DNA from: Candidatus Sulfotelmatobacter sp.
GTDB lineage: Bacteria; Acidobacteriota; Terriglobia; Terriglobales; Acidobacteriaceae
Length of the DNA: 64,000 nucleotides
NCBI GenBank assembly: GCA_025462865.1
Contig: JAOAPI010000084.1
Coordinates: 54,039-118,038, forward strand
Direction: 5' to 3'
Shown here: positions 51,261 to 59,436 of the stretch, one piece after another
Layout of the letters: each line of letters starts with the position of its first letter
Position numbering within the stretch: position 1 is the stretch's first letter
The notes under the pieces: generated by a model
What the model was told of the DNA's origin: nothing
The model's input: the letters and a program-made list of their open reading frames with translations, nothing else
Databases searched by the model: none
Translations under genes and position numbers: made by a program

Positions 51261-53369
51261 GTGTTCTTGGGGAGGAATATGAGAAGAAGTCAGCGTGGCT
51301 TGCTATGGCTGGGTGTGTCCTTCCTTGGGTTGCTGGGCTTTTCCGTCATTTCGATGGCGCAGACTTCTCCCGAATCGCAGGATGCCGTTCCCGTAACCAG
51401 AGACTTCAGCCATAAACATGTCATCTTCTCCAGACCGGCGACGCCAGCACAAGTCTCCCGCGTTCAGCAGGACGTTCGTTATTGGCAGCAGCTCTACCGT
51501 CGTCAGTCCGGGACGATTTCGCCGTCGGAACAGATCGGCTCGAACCTAAATACGAAGCGCGACTGGTCGAAAAGCATGGGAAGCGGCGCTAGCGTGGGCG
51601 CCGGGAACTATCCTGCCAAATACTCATTTTCTCTCACTACGGCAAACTGCGGAACCGCGACTCAGCCTGACTTCACGGTGTATAACACGGGTCTTTCCGG
51701 ATCCGCGACGCAAGCGAGCATCGTAGCCTACTACAACCTTTACTCCGGCTGTACTGGAACCGTACCTTCGGTTTACTGGGCCTATAACACCGGCGGGAAT
51801 GTAAAGACTGCTGTGGCGCTCTCCTTCGACGGCAAGCAGGTTGCTTTTGTGCAAACGCTTGCCGGTCACGCAAGGCTGGTGCTGTTGAAGTGGGCCGCGT
51901 CTACTACCCAGAGTGTAAGCAATCCCGGAACCCCCACGCCTGTATCTCTGGCATCGTACCCAACCTGTACGGCGCCATGCATGACCGGATTTGTTCTCAC
52001 AGACTCCGTGGGCACGGTCAACGACGACACTACATCCTCAATCTTCTACGTCTACAATGACGATTCCGCCTATGTCGGAGATAGTGCCGGCTGGCTGCAT
52101 CAGTTTACCGGCGTGTTTAAGGGAACGCCCACGGAGGTGAGGACGGGCGGCTGGCCGGTGCACGTGAATCCTTCCACCTCGAAGGCTCTCACCGTCGGAG
52201 TTCACGATTTTTCCTCGGGTAAAACTTTTGTTGGAGACGCCGGTGGATTCTTGTATCGCGTGAGTCCTGCGGCGGCCGTAACCGCTTCGGGGCAGTTGGA
52301 CTTCGGTGTAGGCATCGTACAAGGCCCGATCATCGATCCGACGGCTGCAAAGGTTTATGTATTTGCGTCAAGCGACGGCTCTTCGGCTTGCACTGGTGGC
52401 GTCAATTGCGCCAGTGTATACGCCCTGGGCTTCAGTTTCGCGGCGGGCAATACAGGAACGAAGAAGACAGTAGGAATTAGTACTCTCACAGGAACCGCGC
52501 CAAATCCCCTCTACATCGGCGACTTCGACAGCACTTATCAAAATTCGGTGAACTCAACCGGAAATCTTTATGTTTGCGGCAACACCGGCGGGCCCCCCAT
52601 CCTGTACAAAGTTCCGATTGCAGCTGGCGTTCTCGGGACCGCTACCGCTGGATCGGTTCTTTCGACGAGTACTACGCCCTGCTCTCCGGTAACTGATGTG
52701 GTGAATCCCAATATTGCGGGAGGCTTAACGGAGTGGGTATTCGCCAGTGCCGATATAAACGGGACAGGTGCCGGTTGCGCCGGCGGATGCATCTACAATT
52801 TCAAAAACACCCCTTGGCAGGCGTCGACCGCGTATGCAGTTGGCCAGGAAGTGGTGGATAGTTCCTTCCATATTCAGGTTGTCACGGTTGCGGGTACTTC
52901 CGGAGCGACCGCCCCCGCATGGAGCGCTACCGGGGGCACCACGACCACCGACGGAACAGTTACGTGGTTTAGCCAGGGAGTGACGAGTGCCGGTACCCGG
53001 GCAGTATGGGTGCGTCTTAACCACTATCCCGTGGGCAGCAAGATTTTGGATGGCAACAATAATATCGAAATCGTAAAGGTCTCCAACGGGAATGGTAACT
53101 CCGGGGGCAATCTGCCTACGTGGAATACCACAGTCGGGGGCACTACGGCTGATGCCGCTTTGACTTGGACGAACCTGGGGCCGAATTCCTCATCGTCCCT
53201 CCCTTCAGCCGGAGGCACCAGTGGCATCATTATCGACAACACCGTCAGCTCAGGGACGTTGGCGGGTGCGTCTCAGATATATTTCTCCACTCTGAGCAAC
53301 CAGACTTGCGCGACGTCCGGTACGACAGGCGGTTGCGCGGTGCAGGCGTCGCAGGCAGCGCTACAGTAG
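51261..53369 (+). CDS. Large secreted protein of unknown function
   Basis: Signal peptide GLLWLGVSFLGLLGFSVISMAQ; two WxxxxxYxVGxxVxD...GTVTWxxxG-like repeats; 17 bp upstream of the precursor peptide gene. Confidence 0.75.
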   Translation: MFLGRNMRRSQRGLLWLGVSFLGLLGFSVISMAQTSPESQDAVPVTRDFSHKHVIFSRPATPAQVSRVQQDVRYWQQLYRRQSGTISPSEQIGSNLNTKRDWSKSMGSGASVGAGNYPAKYSFSLTTANCGTATQPDFTVYNTGLSGSATQASIVAYYNLYSGCTGTVPSVYWAYNTGGNVKTAVALSFDGKQVAFVQTLAGHARLVLLKWAASTTQSVSNPGTPTPVSLASYPTCTAPCMTGFVLTDSVGTVNDDTTSSIFYVYNDDSAYVGDSAGWLHQFTGVFKGTPTEVRTGGWPVHVNPSTSKALTVGVHDFSSGKTFVGDAGGFLYRVSPAAAVTASGQLDFGVGIVQGPIIDPTAAKVYVFASSDGSSACTGGVNCASVYALGFSFAAGNTGTKKTVGISTLTGTAPNPLYIGDFDSTYQNSVNSTGNLYVCGNTGGPPILYKVPIAAGVLGTATAGSVLSTSTTPCSPVTDVVNPNIAGGLTEWVFASADINGTGAGCAGGCIYNFKNTPWQASTAYAVGQEVVDSSFHIQVVTVAGTSGATAPAWSATGGTTTTDGTVTWFSQGVTSAGTRAVWVRLNHYPVGSKILDGNNNIEIVKVSNGNGNSGGNLPTWNTTVGGTTADAALTWTNLGPNSSSSLPSAGGTSGIIIDNTVSSGTLAGASQIYFSTLSNQTCATSGTTGGCAVQASQAALQ

Positions 53370-53386
53370 GCAGAGAGGACATAACT

Positions 53387-53557
53387 ATGGGCATAACTCA
53401 TTCGTCCAGCGACGGACCAGACGATCTGGCGGCCAGGAAGAGGCCCTACGAGAAGCCAAGTTTTCGCTTCGAAGAGGTCTTTGTGACCTCAGCGCTTTCC
53501 TGCACGAAAGCGCCTAATGAGACAAATTGCAAGTTCGGTCCTAAAAAGGTCTCATAA
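53387..53557 (+). CDS. Putative RiPP precursor peptide (56 aa)
   Basis: AGAGAGGAC RBS then MGITHSSSDGPDDLAARKRPYEKPSFRFEEVFVTSALSCTKAPNETNCKFGPKKVS; YxxP-type leader motif, Cys-containing C-terminal core; stop overlaps next start (TAATG). Confidence 0.75.
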   Translation: MGITHSSSDGPDDLAARKRPYEKPSFRFEEVFVTSALSCTKAPNETNCKFGPKKVS

Positions 53558-54060
53558 TGCAGGAGTGCCATGAGATGCGCAATGTTCTTGCCGCAAAGTG
53601 CGAACTGGCAGGTGAGATTTTGCGCTCTTTCGGAAGTTTTCGTTTTACTGCCACCGGCTGGAGCATGCTTCCGGCACTCTGGACCGGCGACACGCTGATC
53701 GTTGAACGCATCAACCCCGATCAATACCAGGTCGGAGATATCGCGCTCGTCGGACGTCGAGGCACGCTATGTGCCCACCGCGTCGTCTGTCTTCCGGAAA
53801 ATAATGGCGGTCGATTCTGGATCACTCAAGGAGACGCAATTCCCGCACCAGATCGACCGGTGCTCGAAGCTGAGCTCTTGGGCCGCGTAACTCAGCTTAT
53901 TCGGTCGGGGAAGTCCATCTCCGTCTCCGCAAATCTAAGAGGGATCAAAAAGCTGCTTGCACAGGTTGTGCGGCGTTCAGCTTTTGCGGCTCGTGTTTTC
54001 GTGTACGTCGCGAGCAAGGTTCGAGCTCAGAGAGAAGCCATCCTTCCGTGCCAGGGCTAG
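53557..54060 (+). CDS. S24/S26 (SipW-like) signal-peptidase family protein
   Basis: TATGWSMLPALWTGDTLIVERI (Ser box) and LCAHRVVCLPENNGGRFWITQGDAIPAPD (His in place of Lys). Confidence 0.82.
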   Translation: MQECHEMRNVLAAKCELAGEILRSFGSFRFTATGWSMLPALWTGDTLIVERINPDQYQVGDIALVGRRGTLCAHRVVCLPENNGGRFWITQGDAIPAPDRPVLEAELLGRVTQLIRSGKSISVSANLRGIKKLLAQVVRRSAFAARVFVYVASKVRAQREAILPCQG

Positions 54061-54863
54061 CCACACAAATCGCGCATTACAGCGTGGTCATTGCGATTGG
54101 CGATGTCGCGATCCGGTTGAACACCATCGACGCGGATTTTTTGGAGATTCTCCACCACCGTTACTCGGGATTCGTGAGCCCGGCAGCACACGCAGAATTC
54201 GAATTCGATGTTGACCTCTTGCCTCCACCGTTCACCGATTCGCAGGTAGATCTGAGCGTCACCCAGCGTGCCGGTCGATGGGTACTGGATCGAGGCGATT
54301 TTCGCGCCGAGTGGGACCCGGCAGCGGGCCGCGGCAGCATCCGCCAGAGTGCGAATCCATATTCGATCGACGCGGTTCTGCGCATCGTCCACACGCTGGT
54401 TCTGGCAAAACAAGGTGGCTTCCTACTGCACTCCGCCAGTGCCATTCGCAACGGGAAGGCATTTCTTTTTGCCGGGGTTTCAGGCGCCGGCAAGACGACG
54501 ATTTCGCGGCTCGCTCCGCCCGATGCCACTCTTTTGACCGATGAGATCTCCTACGTTCGCAAACGGGATGACGGTTATGTTGCTTTCGGCACGCCATTCA
54601 CTGGAGAGCTTGCCAAATTGGGCGAAAATCGTTCAGCGCCGGTGAGGGCTCTCTACTTGCTGGCCCAGGGTCCGGAAAATCGCATTGAGCCGGTGAACGC
54701 TGCGGAAGCTGGGCGCCAACTGCTCGCTAATATGCTTTTCTTTGCTGAAGATCAGGAAATCGTTCACCGGGCATTCAATGCCGCATGCAACTTTGTCGAT
54801 CGGGTTCCAGTATTCAGGCTTACCTTCGTTCCGGACGCGCGCGTATGGGAGATGATTGGATGA
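54048..54863 (+). CDS. HPr-kinase-like P-loop protein
   Basis: GGFLLHSASAIRNGKAFLFAGVSGAGKTTISRLAPPDATLLTDEISYV; overlaps neighbours by 13 nt and 4 nt (GTG start). Confidence 0.8.
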   Translation: MPGLATQIAHYSVVIAIGDVAIRLNTIDADFLEILHHRYSGFVSPAAHAEFEFDVDLLPPPFTDSQVDLSVTQRAGRWVLDRGDFRAEWDPAAGRGSIRQSANPYSIDAVLRIVHTLVLAKQGGFLLHSASAIRNGKAFLFAGVSGAGKTTISRLAPPDATLLTDEISYVRKRDDGYVAFGTPFTGELAKLGENRSAPVRALYLLAQGPENRIEPVNAAEAGRQLLANMLFFAEDQEIVHRAFNAACNFVDRVPVFRLTFVPDARVWEMIG

Positions 54864-55183
54864 ATAAAAAACTCTACGTCGCCCGAAGTCCCCGAATCGC
54901 GGCCCGCCAGCTCGGCGAAGAAATGCTGGTCATGTCTGCTCAGGGTTCGACACTGTTTACTTTGAACCAAACCGCGACTGTCCTATGGCAGGCTGCCGAT
55001 GGGAAAACTACATTGGAGGAAATCGTCGAGCGCCGCATCTGTTCTGAGTTTGAAGTGACGCCCGAAGACGCTATCCGCGACGCCGAGGACTTGGCCGAAG
55101 ATCTCGCTAAACATGGCATCCTCCTGGTTTCAGAGATCCCAATCCCAAGCCGGGACCCTGTCTTACAGGAGCAAATTCGATGA
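54860..55183 (+). CDS. PqqD-family RiPP recognition element protein
   Basis: QLGEEMLVMSAQGSTLFTLNQTATVLWQAADGKTTLEEIVERRICSEFEVTPEDAIRDAEDLAEDLAKHGIL; ATGA overlaps on both sides. Confidence 0.88.
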   Translation: MNKKLYVARSPRIAARQLGEEMLVMSAQGSTLFTLNQTATVLWQAADGKTTLEEIVERRICSEFEVTPEDAIRDAEDLAEDLAKHGILLVSEIPIPSRDPVLQEQIR

Positions 55184-56334
55184 GCTTGATGGCGGAGATG
55201 GGGGAGCGGGCGCATCGGCTGGGCGTTCCTTTCAGCGTTCAACTCGATCTCACCTATCGCTGCAATGAACAATGTGTTCACTGTTATCTCGATCACCATG
55301 ATCACGGCGAGATGACAACCGCCGAAATCAAGAAACTCCTTAGAGAGATGGCAGACGCCGGCGTTTTCATCCTGACCCTGAGCGGCGGCGAGATTTTTCT
55401 ACGCAAAGATTTTTTCGAGATTCTCGAATATGCGCGCGCGCTTACGTTCTGCATCAAGCTAAAGACCAATGCGGTTCTGATCCGCGAAGCGCAGGCAGCG
55501 AGACTTCGCGATCTGGGTGTGGAATCGATCCAAATCAGCATCTATTCGCACCGGCCGGAAGTGCATGATGCCATCACCAAACTTCCAGGTTCTCTGCGGC
55601 GCTCGATCAAAGCCATTCGCTTCCTCAGATCGCAAGGCCTCAAAGTCGTCATGGCTAATGTTCTGATGACCCAGAACATGGATGACTACCCGAGCACCCG
55701 CGCTTTGGCAGATGAGCTTGGCGCCGAATACACTCTGGATCCGACCGTGACCCCGATGATGGATGGGGATCGCGCCGTCCTGGATTTGAACGTTGGCGAA
55801 TCGGCCCTCCGCCGCGTTTTTCGCGACGAAACTCTCGTCGGCAATGCCGACGAATTCTGTGCGCCGCCGCGCCCGCTCGATGACGACAGCATGGACTCTA
55901 CGCCCTGCAGCGCCGGTCACACGGCCTGCTATGTCTCTCCTTATGGCGAGTTCTATCCGTGCGTGCAATTTCCTTTGTCCTGTGGGAACGTCCGGCAACA
56001 GAGCTTTATCGATATCTGGCACAACTCCGAGCAATTGAAAGAGGTCCGATCGATTCGCCTGCGCGATCTCTCCAGTTGCTCGCAGTGCGCGCATGGCGGG
56101 AGTTGCACTCGTTGCCCGGGCTTGGCATTTCTGGAAGGAAACATGCGCGGCCCTTCCACTGCGGATTGCGAGAGATCTTTCGCCCGAACCGGCATTCCCT
56201 CCGCCAATCTGCTGGCGAAGAAGGATAAGGATAAAGTATCCCCTGCACGCCTCGTACAAATCCAACTTGTGCCTGTAATCACCGGCGTCAGGCTGTTGGA
56301 AATGAGCAGCGCGGCCTGTACGTTAGCGTCGTAG
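55180..56334 (+). CDS. Radical SAM/SPASM peptide-modifying enzyme
   Basis: DLTYRCNEQCVHCYLDHH (CxxxCxxC), LSGGEIFLRKDFFEIL, SPASM cysteines CSAGHTACYVSPYGEFYPC...CSQCAHGGSCTRCPG. Confidence 0.93.
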   Translation: MSLMAEMGERAHRLGVPFSVQLDLTYRCNEQCVHCYLDHHDHGEMTTAEIKKLLREMADAGVFILTLSGGEIFLRKDFFEILEYARALTFCIKLKTNAVLIREAQAARLRDLGVESIQISIYSHRPEVHDAITKLPGSLRRSIKAIRFLRSQGLKVVMANVLMTQNMDDYPSTRALADELGAEYTLDPTVTPMMDGDRAVLDLNVGESALRRVFRDETLVGNADEFCAPPRPLDDDSMDSTPCSAGHTACYVSPYGEFYPCVQFPLSCGNVRQQSFIDIWHNSEQLKEVRSIRLRDLSSCSQCAHGGSCTRCPGLAFLEGNMRGPSTADCERSFARTGIPSANLLAKKDKDKVSPARLVQIQLVPVITGVRLLEMSSAACTLAS

Positions 56335-56376: not shown

Positions 56377-57423
56377 ATGGCCAATATTCTCTACGGAGTG
56401 AATGGCGAGGGTGCCGGACATTCCACCCGCGCCAAGGAAGTGCTCACTCATCTGCGGCAGCAGGGACATAGTTTGCACGTCGCCTCGTTCGACCGGGGAT
56501 TGCTCAATCTCCGCGACCATTTTGAAGTCACTGAAATTTTCGGGTTCCGCTTTGCCTACGTGAATAATCGTGTGCGCTACAAGCGCACCATTGCGAAGAA
56601 CCTGGTGACAATGCCCCAGGCGGGAAAGAGCGTAAGAGAGATCAAGGAGTTGATCAAGAGTTCGAAGATCGATCTTGTGATCACCGACTTCGAACCGCTC
56701 ACTTGCCACGTCGGGCACAGAATGGGCCTGCCGGTTATCTCTATCGATAATCAACATTGCCTGACCAACGCGGTCGTCTCTTATCCCCGCAAGTACCATC
56801 GCGATGCCGCGGCTGCAAAACTTCTGACTCGGCTGATGACTCCCCACGCCGATGCCTACCTGGTCATTTCCTTTTTCACGGCACCGGTGAAGAAGCGAAA
56901 CACGTTCTTGTTTCCACCGCTGTTGCGACAGGAAATTCTCCAGGCCGCCCCCACGCAAGGCGAGTATGTACTCGTGTATGTAACTTCTCCCGCGCCATTG
57001 CTGGCGAAGGTGCTGAGCACCGTCCGCGGAAAATTCATTGCCTACGGTTTCGGCCGAGAGGGCACGGAAGGAAACACTGTCTACAAGAAACCATCACTCG
57101 ATGGATTTCTTCGTGATCTCACGGGAGCCGGAGCCGTCATTGCCAATTCCGGATTTTCATTGGTCACCGAGGCTCTACATCTGAGCAAGCCCTATCTGGC
57201 CGTTCCAGTCGAGCATCAGTTCGAGCAGATTTTTAATGCCTACTGGTTACAGAAAACCGGTTATGGCGCGTACTGGGAAGACTTGAATAAAGAGCGCGTC
57301 GAATCGTTCCTCTACAACCTGCCCCTATATCGCGACAAGCTCGCCGACTATCCCCGGCAAGGCAACGGCGCGCTACTCGCTAAGCTTGATGATCTAATTG
57401 TTGAGCAACGCCGGGCCTCTTAA
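56377..57423 (+). CDS. MJ1255/VC2487-like glycosyltransferase
   Basis: MANILYGVNGEGAGHSTRAKEVLTHL, GAGAVIANSGFSLVTEALHLSKPYLAVPVEHQFEQIFNAYWLQK. Confidence 0.85.
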   Translation: MANILYGVNGEGAGHSTRAKEVLTHLRQQGHSLHVASFDRGLLNLRDHFEVTEIFGFRFAYVNNRVRYKRTIAKNLVTMPQAGKSVREIKELIKSSKIDLVITDFEPLTCHVGHRMGLPVISIDNQHCLTNAVVSYPRKYHRDAAAAKLLTRLMTPHADAYLVISFFTAPVKKRNTFLFPPLLRQEILQAAPTQGEYVLVYVTSPAPLLAKVLSTVRGKFIAYGFGREGTEGNTVYKKPSLDGFLRDLTGAGAVIANSGFSLVTEALHLSKPYLAVPVEHQFEQIFNAYWLQKTGYGAYWEDLNKERVESFLYNLPLYRDKLADYPRQGNGALLAKLDDLIVEQRRAS

Positions 57424-58977: not shown

Positions 58978-59436
58978 ATGGCCTTGGTTGTCCGTCCCTC
59001 CCGCATTCATGCCGCTGGTGTGTTCACTACTACGCCGGTTCGCAAAGGTACCCGCGTTGTCGAATATACCGGCCCTCGAATCACGCCTGAGGAAGCCGAT
59101 CGCTTGTACGATACCGCGCCTCGCACTTACCTCTATGGTCTGGATGACGGCAAGACGGTCATCGATGGCGAGGGCCTGGGCGCGTACCTGAACCACTCCT
59201 GCGATCCCAACTGCGAAATCGATGAAATAAAAAAACGCGCCTGGATTTTTGCCCTCCGAGACATCGCTGCCGGTGAAGAACTGCTCTGGGATTACAACTT
59301 GTACGACGATGATGATCCAGCGCCCTGTCACTGTGGGTCGCCCAAATGCCGTGGCACCATGTATTCGCGCGAATGGATCGCCAAGCTGCGACGCAAGACC
59401 GCGCGAAAGAAGACACGAAATAAGAAATTAAGATAA
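58978..59436 (+). CDS. SET-domain protein lysine methyltransferase-like protein with post-SET Cys cluster and basic tail
   Basis: GVFTTTPVRKGTRVVEYTG, YLNHSCDPNCE, GEELLWDYN, CHCGSPKCRGTMYSREW, tail KLRRKTARKKTRNKKLR. Confidence 0.92.
   Translation: MALVVRPSRIHAAGVFTTTPVRKGTRVVEYTGPRITPEEADRLYDTAPRTYLYGLDDGKTVIDGEGLGAYLNHSCDPNCEIDEIKKRAWIFALRDIAAGEELLWDYNLYDDDDPAPCHCGSPKCRGTMYSREWIAKLRRKTARKKTRNKKLR

Follow-up and report, generated by a model that had tools for sequence, protein, structure and literature searches.

A conserved 56-residue peptide of Acidobacteriota, co-inherited with a secreted beta-propeller, is probably the precursor of a radical SAM-containing RiPP

A small gene in the window, that is, the whole stretch of 64,000 nucleotides analysed here (from the soil acidobacterium Candidatus Sulfotelmatobacter sp.), probably encodes the precursor (A gene) of a radical SAM (rSAM)-containing relative of the linear polyphosphorylated peptides (LPP) and paeninodin-type RiPPs, which would be produced from a six-gene operon and act, once mature, with a secreted beta-propeller (Table 1). 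We put the probability of this reading at about 0.72. The gene, its conservation, the set of genes around it, their catalytic motifs and the fact that the propeller gene is co-inherited with it and adjoins it can all be seen in the sequences, and the argument below is built on them. Three features escaped the initial annotation, which had picked out the peptide: the C-terminal Ser, which never varies, the HprK-like kinase and the secreted beta-propeller.

The frame at 53387-53557 is exactly as it was first described, in sequence, coordinates and stop: an ATG...TAA frame in the window with a coding part at 53387-53554 followed by TAA at 53555-53557, whose putative ribosome-binding site is a GAGG found 8 nt before the ATG. 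A tblastn-type search at E<=0.1 recovered homologs in 62 of the 299 genomes of the order (54 of them strong), whose usual neighbours encode an S26 peptidase of the archaeal type, a kinase resembling HprK, a PqqD/RRE protein and an rSAM/SPASM enzyme, and this synteny bears out the description of the peptide as precursor-like. By profile search, the family was also found in 46 of 300 genomes from other families of the class, and weak matches reach distant Acidobacteriota, where the typical form is MKKPYEKPAIIHSEKVEARAVQCAKSDAGSCGPNGPITS. Two profiles gave no convincing precursor homolog in rSAM neighbourhoods from outside the phylum (L055-L086, 22-36% identity), so the family is shown within Acidobacteriota only, and the plasmid collection searched yielded no match. 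This conserved family is apparently undescribed so far; a literature search, thin on subscription journals, found no description of the cluster.

Comparison of 93 distinct peptides, gathered from all loci with a search pattern that ignored the C-terminus, reveals how constrained they are. The C-terminal residue is Ser in 93/93, the core contains exactly two Cys in 91/93, a Lys is found two residues past the first Cys (C-x-K) in 90/93, and 60 have identical spacings (10 from Cys to Cys, 7 to the end). In the leader, Y-x-K-P-x-F is near-invariant, and the family pattern is YxKPxFRxExVFETxALxC, in which FET reads FVT in the window genus and Leu occupies core position 3; the motif YExP...F..V...AL.C...C, originally noticed in the window peptide, is kept in the homologs. 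Median pairwise dN/dS is 0.18 (0.15-0.16 for the two computable window pairs), a value from pairs that are not mutually independent and whose direction is unambiguous, which indicates a protein under purifying selection. Sequence comparison thus confirms that the 56-aa frame is a real, conserved gene. The window peptide has a leader of residues 1-34, with YEKPSF at 21-26 and FVT at 32-34, and a predicted core of residues 35-56, SALSCTKAPNETNCKFGPKKVS, which contains C39, K41, C48 and the C-terminal S56; the boundary is put after T34 on the model of LPP precursors, where cleavage is taken to follow FET. Four loci in distant Acidobacteriota and class-level relatives (L151, L152, L167 and L177) carry the precursor twice, as a tandem pair or at a distance of 3 kb. 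In one genome (G227), a precursor-like match adjoining the kinase gene carries an in-frame stop (C274:21417-21500), the two orphan copies next to propellers being intact.

Table 1. Features of the proposed operon, in window coordinates
Feature	Coordinates	Strand	Basis
Secreted beta-propeller (702 aa), proposed partner of the mature peptide	51261..53369	+	alignment, model, profiles, co-occurrence
Shine-Dalgarno-like GAGG (putative)	53375..53378	+	~8 nt 5' of ATG; read from sequence
Precursor peptide gene (56 aa)	53387..53557	+	reading frame, homologs, alignment
Archaeal-type (Ser/His) S26 signal-peptidase-like protein, proposed leader peptidase	53557..54060	+	TIGR02228, conserved residues
HprK/ScmC-like P-loop kinase, proposed kinase of the C-terminal Ser	54048..54863	+	profile, fold, motif
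PqqD-type RiPP recognition element	54860..55183	+	PF05402 E=1.7e-14; nearest solved = TbiB1/TfuB1 (lasso RREs)
Radical SAM/SPASM peptide maturase	55180..56334	+	PF04055 + PF13186

The precursor ATG lies 17 nt past the stop codon of the propeller gene, its stop overlaps the start of the next gene (TAATG), the S26 and HprK genes overlap, and the HprK/PqqD and PqqD/rSAM junctions are ATGA overlaps. With such overlaps and close spacing, the six genes (propeller, precursor, S26, HprK, PqqD and rSAM) look like a single translationally coupled operon. The S26 protein, of the archaeal/ER type, matches TIGR02228 with E=9e-13, just under the family cut-off, and its S36-M-x-P39, H74-R75, D93 and D99 are invariant in 32 sequences. 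The kinase has ScmC as its best match (TIGR04249, E=4e-15, below the family cut-off), and its AF2 model (pLDDT 90) has PEPCK and HPr kinases as top Foldseek matches. In the rSAM enzyme, whose nearest solved relative is SkfB, the CX3CX2C motif and eight further Cys in the SPASM-bearing C-terminal part are invariant (43 sequences). The closest NCBIfam profiles, ScmC for the kinase and ScmD for the PqqD protein, come from SynChlorMet (Scm)/GeoRSP systems, which share the PqqD plus rSAM/SPASM architecture; a single rSAM is encoded here, and membership was rejected on scores for PqqD, kinase and rSAM well below the equivalog cut-offs.

Two further activities are encoded near the cluster in relatives (Pfam identity was checked on examples): 20 loci have a gene for an NTP_transf_5-type protein, and about twelve have an ABC-2 exporter pair. 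No NTP_transf_5 gene is present beside the window operon, and no transporter was found among the neighbouring genes scanned around it. The sole NTP_transf_5 gene of the window's genome stands alone on another contig (L181:8296-9489), from where it may partner the kinase product in trans.

The protein encoded upstream of the precursor has a signal-peptide-like start at M51279 and matches no Pfam family. Together, an alignment of 24 homologs, an AF2 model (pLDDT 77.7) and profile matches to designed propellers, TolB and BamB identify it as a beta-propeller; Foldseek returns many propeller proteins, which makes the fold class clear, with low whole-chain TM-scores and no specific functional relative. 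Its last residues, x-Q-[SA]-x-L-x, are conserved. In the window genus, the protein also has inserted repeats (YAVGQEVVDSSFHIQVVTVAGTSGATAPAWS..), at 52776-52973 of the window (residues ~500-565) and onward to ~53214, which match the phage head-decoration family phrog_20658 (E=2e-8) and are absent from most aligned homologs.

The distribution of the two genes in the order is strikingly similar: among 299 genomes, 51 have both, 3 the peptide only, 5 the propeller only and 240 neither (Fisher p=7e-48, with no correction for phylogeny). Of the 96 propeller loci in the same genomes, 43 have a peptide gene no more than 3 kb away, where ~0.2 would be expected, and 53 have none detected within that distance; in the eight genomes examined first, 12/20 propeller copies adjoin a peptide gene. 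The enzyme cluster is present in two of the five genomes with a propeller only; in one, a contig end truncates it, and the other seems to have no peptide. A motif scan for another precursor beside peptide-less propellers (L127-L133) gave unconvincing ORFs only. Since several genomes have extra peptide genes beside a propeller without enzymes (e.g. L087-L094, L104, L106), several peptide-propeller pairs probably share one set of enzymes. That the peptide is inherited together with one secreted propeller suggests that they form a functional pair extracellularly.

These orphan pairs also bear on the strongest competing explanation, which is that the cluster makes a conventional secreted antimicrobial or signalling RiPP, sactipeptide- or ranthipeptide-like, with the propeller as an immunity, receptor or accessory gene. 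We regard this as possible, if rather doubtful. It would account for the two conserved Cys, putative sites of the Cys-to-carbon thioethers that rSAM/SPASM enzymes install in sactipeptides and ranthipeptides, and for the rSAM/SPASM enzyme with SkfB as its nearest solved relative, as well as for the ABC-2 exporter that adjoins the cluster or orphan precursors in some relatives. However, instead of diversifying, the core keeps its Cys, Lys and Ser positions phylum-wide (dN/dS 0.18), orphan precursors are paired with a propeller at sites remote from the enzymes, and no recognisable immunity gene was found.

A peptide that works with a secreted propeller would not be without parallel. The beta subunit of quinohemoprotein amine dehydrogenase is a propeller. 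In the QhpC/QhpD/QhpE/QhpF route, a small leader peptide is crosslinked by an rSAM enzyme, its leader is cut in the cytoplasm, and the product is exported by an ABC transporter and assembled with larger secreted subunits (PMC7876137). The likeness to the gamma subunit of that enzyme is a functional analogy of route, not homology: there is no heme subunit and no flavoprotein QhpG here, the peptide is much shorter and a kinase is added. Taken further, the analogy leads to a tentative proposal, less likely to be right than wrong in our judgement, in which the modified, C-terminally phosphorylated peptide might be a built-in subunit or cofactor of the propeller, in a QHNDH-like complex of Acidobacteriota, rather than a free natural product, and the one enzyme cluster of each genome might act in trans on the orphan pairs. 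Should the main reading, of an rSAM-containing RiPP that acts with the propeller, prove true, it would (i) give the S26/HprK/RRE group of RiPPs, itself only recently recognised, a branch with an rSAM enzyme, (ii) extend that group to a phylum of dominant, hard-to-culture soil bacteria and (iii) provide a rare instance of a RiPP with a defined protein partner outside the cell, whose function could be tested via the gene pair.

The closest described family is LPP, known from the Paenibacillus lpp cluster (2026; PMC13381572). Its precursors, with the motif YxxPxVLxHQxIxFETxxS, are cleaved after T-1 by LppS, an archaeal-type SpI, and LppK acts on Ser3 of the core (PMC13381572); we read T-1 as the T of FET. 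Both systems have an archaeal-type SpI/S26 leader peptidase, a discrete RRE, an HprK-like kinase and a YxxPx...FET leader, both lack a cyclase, and relatives of the window cluster have, in addition, an NTP transferase gene and an ABC exporter as in LPP. They differ in the rSAM enzyme, the propeller partner and the C-x-K...C core, none of which has been reported for LPP (mainly Bacillota), and in the likely kinase target, here the C-terminal Ser. The LPP precursor motif with its Ser3 was not found, FET being kept (FVT in the window) with a spacing two shorter and Leu at core 3, and no MsbA-like transporter gene is present among the scanned neighbours, some relatives having an ABC-2 type instead.

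These comparisons outline a possible pathway, in which the chemistry of every step, the site of cleavage, export and the physical association with the propeller are inferred. The PqqD protein would bind the leader at KPYxKPxF and the kinase would phosphorylate the invariant Ser56, perhaps followed by transfer of a sugar or nucleotide by an NTP_transf_5 protein encoded nearby or elsewhere. The rSAM enzyme would modify the A-L-x-C-G-K...C core, most likely via cysteine (putative), the S26 peptidase would cut after T34, at the F-[E/V]-T position, and an exporter (of the ABC-2 type adjoining the cluster in some relatives) would release a ~22-residue peptide, which would then work with the propeller outside the cell. 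The two Cys lie eight residues apart (C39 and C48), as had been reported, and the thioether crosslink suggested for them is plausible. No acceptor residue was identified, the Lys conserved two residues past the first Cys is just as good a target, and Cys and Lys alike would be natural rSAM targets, the type of bond not being readable from sequence.

The site of phosphorylation deserves closer scrutiny. The target of PadeK-type kinases is the C-terminal Ser, whose conservation among precursors from kinase-bearing clusters is extreme, and the NTP-transferase PsmN leads to a hexose on that Ser in paeninodin-type lasso peptides (reviewed in PMC9266682). The present system resembles the paeninodin/pseudomycoidin type in its HprK-like kinase with a His-Lys-Asp type motif, invariant C-terminal Ser, PqqD/B1 RRE and, in relatives, NTP transferase. 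Lasso-type precursor kinases (PadeK, ThcoK and BsfK) have the catalytic motif H...GxxGxGK[S/T]...DD. The present kinase motif, H128-G143-G146-G148-K149-T150-D165-E166, has the spacing of the lasso-kinase motif of BsfK (H148-G163-G166-G168-K169-S170-D186-D187; PMC10368454), with the second catalytic Asp replaced by Glu in 41/41 aligned kinases. Together with the invariant C-terminal Ser, this points to C-terminal phosphorylation as in paeninodin. BsfK itself acts on Ser3 of the core (PMC10368454), as does LppK (PMC13381572), and the kinase could likewise target another residue, the C-terminal Ser being kept for another reason. We find this unlikely, because core position 3 is Leu and no Ser is conserved there, whereas the C-terminal Ser is invariant (93/93). 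The retention of Y..P and F-E-T, the Leu at core 3 and the invariant C-terminal Ser instead predict cleavage after Thr34 and a phosphate on Ser56.

The resemblance of the leader to the YxxP motif bound by lasso RREs, pointed out in the initial annotation, is genuine, as Y-x-K-P-x-F is near-invariant and the nearest solved relatives of the PqqD protein are TbiB1 and TfuB1. Such a leader, a lasso-type RRE and kinase, and eight lasso-B2-like genes in the window's genome could suggest a lasso-peptide precursor or remnant, a reading that we consider highly improbable. No cyclase or B2 gene is found among the neighbours scanned, where an S26 peptidase takes the place of B2 and an rSAM enzyme is added, the PF13471 protease is absent genome-wide in four relatives bearing the cluster, and core positions 7-9 offer no conserved Asp/Glu for a lactam. 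A lasso system was therefore rejected, the likeness being limited to parts (RRE, kinase, leader). Chances are negligible that the ORF is spurious or non-coding: although it is not the longest start in its frame and the mechanical ORF list, as had been noticed, includes it just as the last part of a longer frame that starts with TTG (53165..53557), this notion is refuted by protein-level conservation with an invariant C-terminus and purifying selection (dN/dS 0.18).

The eight PF13471 genes of the window's genome (contigs C33, C164, C93, C74, C149 (two), C118 and C187 of G000) are unusually many, compared to none in the four relatives. Downstream of the operon and in the same direction is a glycosyltransferase gene (window 56377-57423; PF13528, E=5e-128), homologs of which are also found near the cluster in three other loci (L037, L039 and L053), and a bacterial SET-domain protein (PF00856) is encoded further on, at 58978-59436. 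In six loci of one genus (L095, L096, L098, L101, L103 and L105), a large HD/GAF/GGDEF/PilZ gene (cyclic-di-GMP-type) lies just past the rSAM gene, in convergent orientation.
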